From: a virus | IMG/VR virus record: IMGVR_UViG_3300031951_000037 | Coordinates: 62,001-126,000 of that record | Strand: one strand, 5' to 3' | DNA: 64,000 nt | Shown: positions 3,001 to 35,356 of the stretch, piece by piece | Numbering within the stretch: the first letter of the stretch is position 1 | Layout: every line of letters starts with the position of its first letter | Translations under genes and position numbers: made by a program | The notes under the pieces: model-generated | What the model saw: the letters and a program-made list of their open reading frames with translations, nothing else | Told to the model about the DNA's origin: nothing | Databases searched by the model: none

Positions 3001-6000
3001 AGCAACTCCTATCTATAGAAGTACTGACGGTATTTCTTGGACAACAACCGGATACTATACGCCAAATGATCCTTCTACTGCATTGTCAGTTGCGACTATG
3101 CCTTTGAATTCAGTAGCATATTGCTCAATGGGTCAGGCTTGGGTAGCAGTAGGTCAGAACATACTTCGCAGCACAGATTCATATCTGTGGGATAAGATAA
3201 CAGATTTTAATCCTGCATACGAATATCAATTAAATGCAATAGCTCCAATTACTGGTACTAATTGCATGGGACTTATTGCAGTGGGTAAGGGTAAAGAGCC
3301 AGACTTTTCTAGTGGCATAGGACAGTTAGTAGATATTAACTTGTTCTTCTACAGCCCAGATAGTATCAATTGGACTCAGGCACCTGTTGTAACTGATAAA
3401 GGATTCTATGGAGTTGCTAGCGACGGTGCTGACATAATCGCTGTAGGTGAGAACGGTGTAATATACTACACTCAAAACGGAATTGATTGGGTAGGTCTAA
3501 ACGAAGTCAACTGTTTCTTCGTAAACTCAGCAACCAACGTATTGAGTGTGACAAATACTGCTGGATTTACTGGTGGCGCATTAGGCACTCCGGTCAGATT
3601 CAACAAATCATTCTCTACGATTATTGCCGGAACAACATACTACGTCAAGTCAGTTGTGTCAAGTACTCAAATAACATTATCTAATACATTAGACGGAGCT
3701 GTTAAGGAACTAGTTAGTATTACTGCTGGTGGATTTGTTAATGGTACTACTTACACAATCACCAGCATAGGTACTACAGATTTTACTTTAATCGGTGCAG
3801 CTAGCAATACAGTGGGTATTAACTTTACTGCAACTGGTCCAGGGTCAGGAACAGGTACTGCAAATATTGTTCGTGGCGACATTATTCCTCCGCAAACACA
3901 GATGTATCAGTATAATTCCCTAGATCCAAATCCTTCAACACTAAGAAGCATTATTTACGCTGGCGGAGTTTGGGTAACAGCAGGCGACGAAGGAACGATC
4001 AAGACTTCACCTGACGGTATTACATGGACAGTTAGAAATTCAGGGGTAACTCAAAATCTTAATAATATCGCTTATAATGACAACGATTCGTCATTTACTA
4101 TAGTAGGTGATAATAACGTAATTCTAGTAAGCGAAGATTTAGGTGTTACTTGGACTGCTACATCTGTATTCACTGTGCCAGAAACAGAATACGATGTTGT
4201 CGGTGCTGACTTCTCATTCGGCTATGCACCGGAAGAATTAGTTGCTGGTGTTGTAAGCGACAACATTTCAATAACAGTTACTACCCGCCCCGGAACAAAC
4301 TGGCCTGTAGTAGAATACGGACATACCGGATTTGAAGTAGTTTCATTGGAGTTATTACCAACTGACGGAGAACAGGTAGAATATAGCTTTGATGGTGCGG
4401 TGAAAGTTCCTGCACACATTAACGTTCAGGTAATTGATGGTGCTACTGATTTGGGAACATCGCTTGCAGAAACAGAATATACTATTGATTGGATCAACAA
4501 GTCAATTACGCTAGACACTCCGTTAGCATTCACCCCTGTCGCTGACAAGCTCAGAATTGATGTGTATGCAGTTGGTAATGGAGATCAACTAGTCAAGGCT
4601 AGCACCGATACCAACCCGATCAGAACCGATTCTGTAACCGGATTCAATGAAATCTATGTTAACGCAAATTACAGTGCTAGCATATTTGCTGGAAGCGGCG
4701 TACTAAGACCTGGCACTGACAACTTAAACGTTCGTGTATTCGAAACAGAATCAGTATCAGATAGAATTTTCTGTGACAGCGTGACTAACTTTGTTCTTAA
4801 CGGTCCTATCACGTTCCAAGGAATTCCCTTCGGCGGTCTACAAGAAGAAACAGTTTACTATGTGAAGTCTATCAGTTATGCTACCAACGCAATAATTATT
4901 TCACCGGTGTATGACTCTATTGCAGGACAAGCTGGCCCTGCACTAGAATTGTCTAACGCAACAGGCGAAATGTTTGCTAATATTCAAAACGGCGCGGCAT
5001 CTGTTTGGTCGGACCCAGTGGTAGATCACAATGGAACAAAACTAGTATTTGGTTCAACCGGATTAGTAACTCGTGCGAAAGCATCTAATAATGCATTAAC
5101 AACAGGAACTACTAGTGGGTTGATTGTAGGGACACCAATCACGTTTGGTCAAGGTACGTTTAGTACATTAGTACCATTCCAAAGATACTATATAAAATCC
5201 ATTCTTGATGGCAACGAATTCACAATCTCAGAAACACTTGGCGGCCCTGAGTTTGCTCTAACAGAGTTCAATGGCACGACCACGTTTGTAACTAACGATT
5301 ATGCAATCGGTAGGCGCTCTGATAATCATGCAAAAATTGTGTTTGCTTCTAATCAGTATAACACGGATGTTGATTATATTGTGTTCTCATTGTTTGGAGA
5401 AACAAGCCCAGTACAATATGGGTATGCATTACCAGAAGTGCAATACTTTAACGGTGATGGCTCAACTGCATCGTTCTACCTTAACAACTTTGTGGGATAT
5501 GACAATCCAACAAATGCTATTGTAGAAATTGATGGAGTGAGAATTACAGCGTCACAGTATACTATTAGTTCAATTTCAAATACCATCTTGTTCAATAGTC
5601 CTCCTGCAAATGGCACTATCATATCAGTAATGACATATAATGATACAAGCAGACAATATCTAACTAGTCAGTATAATATTACTGGTAATCCAGGCTCATC
5701 CCTAATAAGCTTGACTGTGGGCTCAACCACACACTTTGAAGCCACATATGACCAAGATACCCCAACAGTAATTACGTATGACCAAGATACCCCAAGTGTA
5801 GTTGCATATGATGAGGTATTAGATTACCTAACATTGTCATCTGGAAGCACGAGTTCATTAAATATCAATGACTCAATAATCTTTGCAGCACCTACGATCG
5901 GTGGCATCGTAGCTGGTCAAACTTACTATGTGACAGAGATCATCAATTCTACTGACTTTGTAATTTCAGAAGACGTTGGTGGACTGCCATTTACAGTAAC

Positions 6001-34817: not shown

Positions 34818-34985
34818 ATGGTAGTCTGTAGTTGTAGAAACATTAGAGACTCGCAATACACTAGCAGAGAAGAACTATCTGCCCGCATTTTACAAGACGA
34901 TTATTGTTGTGGTACATGCTTAGACGAGTTTTTACCAAACGACAACAAAAAGATTGACACGAACCCCCAACTAGTATATAAATAG
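34818..34985 (+). CDS. Bfd-like [2Fe-2S] ferredoxin, 55 aa
   Basis: ATG 34818 starts two bases after the previous stop. The Cys layout is VVC4-S-C6 near the N-terminus and C31-G-T-C34 (YCCGTC), with about 24 residues between them. This is the C-x-C ... C-x-x-C pattern of bacterioferritin-associated ferredoxin (Bfd), a [2Fe-2S] protein that releases iron from bacterioferritin. The length is close to the ~60-65 residues of Bfd. The extra Cys30 is unusual. Its last codons carry the promoter of the tmRNA gene. A role in iron mobilisation is inferred from family resemblance only. Confidence 0.65.
   Translation: MVVCSCRNIRDSQYTSREELSARILQDDYCCGTCLDEFLPNDNKKIDTNPQLVYK
34954..34982 (+). promoter_or_regulatory. 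Sigma70-type promoter of the tmRNA gene
   Basis: TTGACA (34954-34959), 17-bp spacer, TATAAA (34977-34982); it lies within the 3' end of the Bfd-like ORF, whose stop is at 34983-34985. Predicted transcription would start near 34989, just upstream of the acceptor piece. Confidence 0.75.
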
Positions 34986-35053
34986 ATTATCAGTTGTTTG
35001 ATGCAATCTGATGTTTGTGCAGGACCCGGGGGCGGTACCCGGCGCCTCCACCA

Positions 35054-35174
35054 TTAACACACTTGCCTGACTCCTCCGGTTTTTGGGAGGTAAGTTGGGA
35101 CCGAACTTCACTAGAGGTCGTTCTACAGTGCCTTGAGGCATGAGGATACTAACAGAAACGAGTGTGTTAATGAT
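35054..35174 (+). other. Intervening transcribed segment of the permuted tmRNA
   Basis: These 121 bases join the encoded CCA of the acceptor piece to the mature 5' end of the coding piece. Their ends are complementary: TTAACACACT at the left and AGTGTGTTAA at the right. This would extend the acceptor stem in the precursor and guide its excision, as known for permuted tmRNAs. Confidence 0.85.
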
Positions 35175-35259
35175 GGGGGCGAAATTTAGGATCGACTGCA
35201 AGGCAGAGGTGAGAGTAGACTGATTGGTTGGCCGCATATAAGCCAAAACTGTAAATGTC

Positions 35260-35301
35260 GCAGCTAATGACAACAATGTGGATCTTGCCCTAGCGGCATG
35301 A
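35260..35301 (+). other. tmRNA tag reading frame (AANDNNVDLALAA)
   Basis: The resume codon GCA 35260 follows AATGTC. Thirteen sense codons then end in TGA. AANDN at the start and ALAA at the end are typical of alphaproteobacterial tags, and the LAA-type end is a ClpXP degron. Confidence 0.93.
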
Positions 35302-35356
35302 TTCTACGGGGTCCGGGAGTACCTTGCAACAGAAACTCCCAACCATACTAACTATC

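Follow-up and report, generated by a model that had tools for sequence, protein, structure and literature searches.

Gene content of the locus

The DNA analyzed here, a stretch of 64,000 nucleotides (the window), spans bases 62001-126000 of a virus record 126,519 bp long. A circularly permuted (two-piece) tmRNA gene was identified on the plus strand, at window positions 34989-35343, with ARAGORN and Rfam, and is the one alpha_tmRNA present in the record. The gene sits inside a phage genome, as indicated by the viral nature of the record, by its terminase and virion genes and by the occurrence of the same tmRNA in further phage contigs. The terminase belongs to the T4 superfamily (T4/jumbo-type) and shares about 50% identity with its counterparts in Sinorhizobium phage Phosso, Agrobacterium phage Atu_ph07 and Pseudomonas phage PA5oct. 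The record also encodes virion proteins and a Nol-like carbamoyltransferase; no tRNA genes were found in a scan of its first 126,000 bases. The name “Bfd-like”, given to the upstream 55-aa ORF in a preliminary description of this DNA, had no Pfam support, and the downstream gene matched only a PHROG of unknown function and, below threshold, a Pfam family. There was no match to SmpB in the record, which is probably incomplete, or in 20 other phage records. To judge by these partial records, host SmpB would therefore have to serve, and is presumably used by the phage tmRNA.

The features of the locus are listed in Table 1. The same description placed a near-ideal promoter upstream of the RNA. 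The two hexamers are indeed present, and L005 and L086 keep both of them 17 nt apart even though the spacer has diverged; the TTGACA-17-TATAAA arrangement is absent from L012, L013 and L017. The -10 box ends in A, without the consensus final T, and for this reason the promoter was omitted by a strict scan.

Table 1. Positions of the elements of the tmRNA gene and its promoter in the window
Feature	Position	Strand	Basis
Likely sigma-70-type promoter, TTGACA-N17-TATAAA	34954..34982	+	Sequence; hexamers and spacing kept in L005/L086
Acceptor piece, ending in encoded CCA	34989..35053	+	RF04321 from 34989, RF01849 from 34950; 5' end inferred
T-arm, 5-bp stem and 7-nt loop	35026..35042	+	Sequence, Rfam; compensatory change in L141
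Acceptor stem, 3' strand CGCCTCC, holding the U of G3-U70	35043..35049	+	Pairs with 35175-35181
A, then encoded CCA	35050, 35051-35053	+	Sequence
Intervening segment (IVS), 121 nt; predicted excision from the precursor	35054..35174	+	
IVS closing stem, 5' strand	35054..35064	+	Compensatory changes in L005, L141
IVS closing stem, 3' strand	35160..35170	+	Pairs with the 5' strand at 35054..35064
Coding (mRNA-like) piece	35175..35343	+	RF01849 to 35343; predicted RNase P cut 5' of G 35175
Acceptor stem, 5' strand GGGGGCG	35175..35181	+	7 bp with CGCCTCC, G-U at pair 3
Tag frame AANDNNVDLALAA, then stop TGA	35260-35298, 35299-35301	+	ARAGORN
Terminal pseudoknot stem GGGAG/CTCCC	35315-35319/35336-35340	+	5/5 pairs doubly changed, 10 relatives

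Anatomy of the permuted tmRNA gene

ARAGORN, run unprompted on the whole window, called a single gene, the permuted tmRNA, with the tag (V)AANDNNVDLALAA. The Rfam model RF01849 (alpha_tmRNA) matched positions 34950-35343 with 96.8 bits (cut-off 50; E-value 3.9e-25), and RF04321 (tmRNA_permuted) matched positions 34989-35301 with 73.3 bits (cut-off 47). The elements at 34954-35343 (+) follow the permuted order, with the acceptor piece preceding the IVS and the coding piece coming last. The tRNA-like domain formed across the permutation has a 7-bp acceptor stem, the G3-U70 pair, a T-arm and CCA, and the tag frame closes in ALAA followed by a stop codon. G3-U70 is the alanine identity pair. All the elements enumerated in the preliminary description were found in the sequence, with its coordinates for the CCA and G1 exact to the base. 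ARAGORN, Rfam and the covariation among relatives described below agree with its identification of a phage-encoded, permuted tmRNA of the alphaproteobacterial type, and the complementary intervening segment that it mentioned is closed by a stem, with compensatory versions in relatives.

Conservation and selection on structure

Relatives were retrieved with the downstream gene and with a well-conserved part of the coding piece, and ARAGORN found a permuted tmRNA in most of them. The tmRNA was also present in nine of 11 metagenomic records related to the window by the neighboring gene or by the tmRNA itself, and in part of these records it adjoins the same neighboring gene as in the window. In an alignment with these relatives, the tmRNA was the most conserved stretch; variation was seen in the flanks, in the IVS and at the 3' end. 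The 3' end beyond the tag, including the last pseudoknot, exists as at least two alternative modules shuffled among near-identical phage tmRNAs (L005, L008, L009, L012 and L017 compared with window positions 35299-35343).

Covariation was counted over six helices in ten distinct copies (nine plus L152). In these helices, 96.8% of the cells were paired and 11 base pairs were changed on both sides, versus 31-51% paired cells and 0-3 doubly changed pairs in controls with the partners slid by one or two positions; the structure was taken from these same, related copies, and the counts are to be read as support for it rather than as a formal test. Double changes in the terminal pseudoknot were counted for the stem at 35315-35319/35336-35340 alone. 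Three of the seven pairs of the acceptor stem were doubly changed and G3-U70 was invariant, the G-U pair being retained in all four variants observed (CGCCTCC/GGGGGCG, CATCTCC/GGGGATG, CACCTCC/GGGGGTG and CAGGTCC/GGGCCTG).

Integration commonly targets the acceptor end of tmRNA genes. These genes are known integration sites (PMC11915505), and many of the viral contigs retrieved with the acceptor pattern yielded no ARAGORN tmRNA call. A captured host relic or a prophage attachment scar might thus be considered, for which only an unselected fragment would be expected. The gene is nevertheless complete, its helices are held by double changes and its tag is conserved across the family despite divergent flanks, making this explanation extremely improbable. 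A scar in ssrA consisting of the acceptor end alone was likewise rejected, the coding piece being complete and covarying. To judge from its sequence, the gene is selected and of working type, rather than an integration scar.

The tag and the host

The amino acids of the tag are kept in the relatives, in which we observed synonymous changes, one D/E change and a TGA/TAA swap; a diverged tag, VNDNDTMDLALAA (ARAGORN), was found only in L141 and L146. A strict, degenerate DNA pattern (NDNNV(D/E)xA(L/F)AA-stop) gave no exact match to the tag when 84,980 genomes of bacteria and archaea were scanned. The T-arm/acceptor sequence was found, with an exact match, in more than 100 genome contigs; the titles shown were almost all alphaproteobacterial. 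In light of this acceptor match and the tag scan, the gene is alphaproteobacterial in type and its tag was not found in the sampled hosts. Neither result assigns a host: the acceptor sequence is common to many Alphaproteobacteria and hence not diagnostic, and the tag had no exact match in the genomes scanned. Viral permuted tmRNAs with much longer tags, of about 29 residues (e.g. ANDNALSNVTFVDFSAPVTAVNEDFALAA), were also observed (L044, L074, L080 and L289).

The preliminary description suggested that the tmRNA is carried to cope with cut mRNAs or to change tagging. This is plausible, because no SmpB was found in the record and the tag has no exact match in the scanned genomes. A stronger version, in which retagging is the main purpose, giving stalled host or phage proteins another protease fate or protecting phage proteins, would be in keeping with that same lack of an exact match and with the conservation of the tag within the phage family. 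Against it, the tag ends in LALAA, a normal signal for degradation, and may be no more than an ordinary copy that has diverged; the pattern used in the scan was also strict. We regard retagging as the main purpose as possible, if rather doubtful. The tmRNA might alternatively be a decoy or competitor, titrating host SmpB or blocking host trans-translation, as the tag-less tmRNA of phage DS6A inhibits the endogenous tmRNA in E. coli (PMC11915505). A pure decoy would need no tag, yet the window copy retains a full tag frame under selection, together with its stop, and this role is very unlikely.

The intervening segment in the window and its phage family

Within the family, the contents of the IVS swap at one point, from 4 to 295 nt, with the flanking tmRNA nearly unchanged. 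The IVS is 4-5 nt long in L012 and L013, 9 nt (TAAACTTAT) in L008, L009, L017 and L086, 119 nt in L141, 121 nt in the window, 127 nt in L005 and 295 nt in L152. The long versions have unrelated interiors and a common closing stem, which is kept by compensatory change (TTAACACACT/AGTGTGTTAA, TAGACGCATT/AAGTGCGTCTA and TAGACACACT/AGTGTGTCTA) and comprises 12 pairs in the window.

An IVS of this length is unusual for the class, about three of the 150 matches listed from a search of 385 Alphaproteobacteria being as long, and the segment as a whole folds better than shuffled sequences (z = -3.8). Processing of the tmRNA might therefore release it as a small RNA with a function of its own. Once the closing stem was trimmed, the interior folded no better than shuffles (z = -0.75), so the folding signal is that of the stem alone; there was also no non-tmRNA Rfam match and no diverged homologue for covariation analysis. 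A small RNA is, on balance, improbable, and a structured one was rejected on the folding values. A ribozyme, riboswitch or tRNA was rejected too, with no convincing non-tmRNA Rfam match for the IVS of the window, L005 or L141; a T-arm-like hairpin in the L141 IVS was not scored as a tRNA. Neither the phage genome nor phage isolates yielded a further copy of the insert, and no ORF with a ribosome-binding site was found to cover the window IVS. Given the lack of an ORF, the stem-only fold and the absence of a non-tmRNA Rfam match, the window IVS is treated as a long spacer.

Small ORFs nested in viral intervening segments

The IVS of L152 (5710-6004, minus strand) contains a complete ORF of 88 aa (MGGMNNKTSKEV...TVRWK) with a ribosome-binding site. 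This contig carries a member of the window's tmRNA family, with a retained closing stem and a covaried acceptor stem, together with a homologue (42% over 121 aa) of the ORF that lies upstream in the window. A wider survey of permuted tmRNAs was therefore performed, on contigs obtained with sequence patterns; only copies with a 5-bp T-stem and a 7-bp acceptor stem whose third pair is G-U were accepted. The survey yielded at least 345 unique permuted tmRNAs, 101 bacterial and at least 244 viral, the viral counts throughout being lower bounds and not frequencies. The median IVS length was 35 nt for the bacterial tmRNAs (n=101; four of at least 100 nt) and 86 nt for the viral ones (n of at least 244; at least 102 of at least 100 nt), a comparison that is only indicative because the two samples were drawn with different patterns.

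ORFs were counted by a single rule, a Shine-Dalgarno-like motif followed by an ORF covering at least half of the IVS, in sequences that are related to one another. At least 33 of the 102 viral IVS measuring 100 nt or longer contained a qualifying ORF, versus one on the reverse strand and 3.1 in dinucleotide shuffles. For viral IVS of at least 140 nt, the corresponding values were at least 30 of 58, versus one and 1.9, and 22 of these ORFs covered at least 80% of the IVS, versus 0.05 in shuffles. No qualifying ORF was found in IVS of 60-99 nt or in 17 bacterial IVS. A 184-nt IVS with a 49-aa membrane-type ORF was observed in L199 (PAHC01000018.1, a Rhodobiaceae MAG); it is the sole bacterial case seen, and its ribosome-binding site falls short of the counting rule.

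Eight nested-ORF families with at least two members are under purifying selection, with pN/pS values of 0.10-0.40 in simple pairwise counts. Their stop codons recur at set positions, in most cases 1, 7 or 12 nt short of the IVS end, and the ribosome-binding site usually sits in or beside the closing stem's 5' strand. At least 17 viral contigs (including L404, L414, L426, L438, L439, L462, L467 and L477) carry, nested in the tmRNA IVS, a conserved family of small hydrophobic proteins with the motif YIxWSICAD (pN/pS of 0.38). The 388-nt IVS of L392 holds two overlapping small ORFs, both with homologues elsewhere, and several nested families have members outside the IVS in related contigs, sometimes directly beside the tmRNA. 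No significant PHROG match was obtained for the 11 nested ORFs tested, and no Pfam match for the one checked. The IMG/VR contigs are fragments, some of which may be host DNA; phage-type genes near the tmRNA were confirmed in L394, L399, L152 and L141 only. CUA-anticodon tRNAs (“Pyl” in the ARAGORN output), possible amber suppressors, were observed at L152:1713-2296 and L043:7297-7583, on contigs that both carry tmRNAs.

Permuted tmRNAs of cultured phages

Two-piece tmRNAs of phages have already been published: tmRNA genes were reported in 402 of 18,146 phage genomes in the study describing the OM43 phage Melnitz, in which 53 of 133 unique phage tmRNA structures were two-piece, 50 of these 53 being marine or aquatic (PMC9004378). 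The 2025 tmRNA database contains 79 unique phage sequences (PMC11915505), and tmRNAs have been described in Bradyrhizobium phages in a 2025 paper (PMC12656738). The window gene adds one to this set. It resembles the alphaproteobacterial tmRNAs of RF01849 and RF04321 in gene order, G3-U70, CCA, T-arm, AANDN...ALAA tag, closing stem and terminal pseudoknot, but differs from them in being phage-borne, in its tag without an exact bacterial match and in an IVS length in the upper tail of the alphaproteobacterial range.

Phage Melnitz (MZ577097) likewise has a phage-borne permuted tmRNA of alphaproteobacterial affinity and no SmpB found in its record. It differs in its OM43 host, in the glutamine riboswitch described in its paper (PMC9004378) and in having an open frame in its IVS, where the window has none. 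This IVS (L503, approximately 3285-3430) has a ribosome-binding site and a frame beginning MFKWLSKTRL..., with no stop within the IVS. The annotated gene 85 of Melnitz (L503:2989-3189), which ends 3 bp before the annotated ssrA, is homologous to ORFs nested in the IVS of L286, L301, L334, L353, L378 and L385. As gene 85 lies outside the IVS and its homologues lie inside, the gene has moved with respect to this segment.

Sinorhizobium phage Phosso (PV764938), the nearest cultured relative by terminase, is, similarly, a jumbo phage of an alphaproteobacterium with a permuted tmRNA, with the tag ANDNVSTKVALAA. Its tmRNA (L505, PV764938.1:349596-350198, minus strand) is unannotated, has a non-coding IVS of 410 nt, unlike the window copy, and is too dissimilar to that copy for blastn. 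Long inverted repeats in the Phosso IVS could pair with CCACCA and the acceptor-stem GGGGCT, as a competing fold. Phosso is one of several cultured phages whose permuted tmRNAs lack such an annotation, together with HTVC008M (L535:721-1062) and the phages RcRudolph and RcSimone-Hastad. In the Rhodobacter phage RcRudolph, the tmRNA is located at L282:2942-3356 and is overlapped by a called hypothetical protein; in RcSimone-Hastad, it was recognized by its sequence elements (L504, from approximately 1320). An interpretation of the Rhodobacter phage matches as attachment scars was rejected, RcRudolph having a full permuted tmRNA called by ARAGORN and RcSimone-Hastad the same elements.

Discussion

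We consider the window gene to be a functional-type phage two-piece tmRNA that would recycle ribosomes on broken mRNAs during infection by means of a phage-encoded tag, with a probability of about 0.88. The analysis shows the anatomy of the gene, the selection on its structure and tag, its conservation across the phage family and the lack of SmpB in the record; its transcription, processing, charging and tagging, and its benefit to the phage, are inferred, the protein steps being those of established tmRNA biology. The gene's own promoter would give rise to a single precursor transcript, from which host RNase P and 3' tRNA-processing enzymes would excise the 121-nt IVS, the acceptor and coding pieces staying joined via the acceptor stem and the P2 helices. 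The tmRNA would be charged through G3-U70 by the alanyl-tRNA synthetase of the host, whose SmpB and EF-Tu would deliver it to stalled ribosomes. The ribosome would then append AANDNNVDLALAA and terminate, and ribosomes on broken mRNAs would be recycled during infection.

The IVS of the two-piece tmRNA is probably a cargo site in many aquatic phages, the window IVS being an alternative occupant of this site. The cargo would be one or two genes for small proteins, often membrane-type, with the ribosome-binding site in or beside the 5' strand of the closing stem and the stop in or beside its 3' strand, and the same transcript would serve both as the mRNA of such a protein and as a ribosome-rescue RNA precursor. 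Because the ribosome-binding site and the stop both lie in or beside the closing stem, translation of the precursor and folding of this stem would be expected to compete in the viruses with nested ORFs; the transcript may act either as mRNA or as tmRNA precursor, or as one and then the other. We found no report of a protein gene nested in a tmRNA IVS, in a literature search that left out most subscription papers and all preprints.

The window thus provides a well-supported addition to the small published set of phage two-piece tmRNAs, from a phage family that can be aligned and in which selection on tmRNA structure and tag can be demonstrated. The viral IVS sampled are far longer than the bacterial ones and repeatedly contain conserved small protein genes, in a segment that is supposedly disposable. 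Such nested genes could couple the translation of phage proteins to the maturation of the tmRNA, and their position within an RNA gene may cause small phage genes of this kind to be overlooked in annotation.
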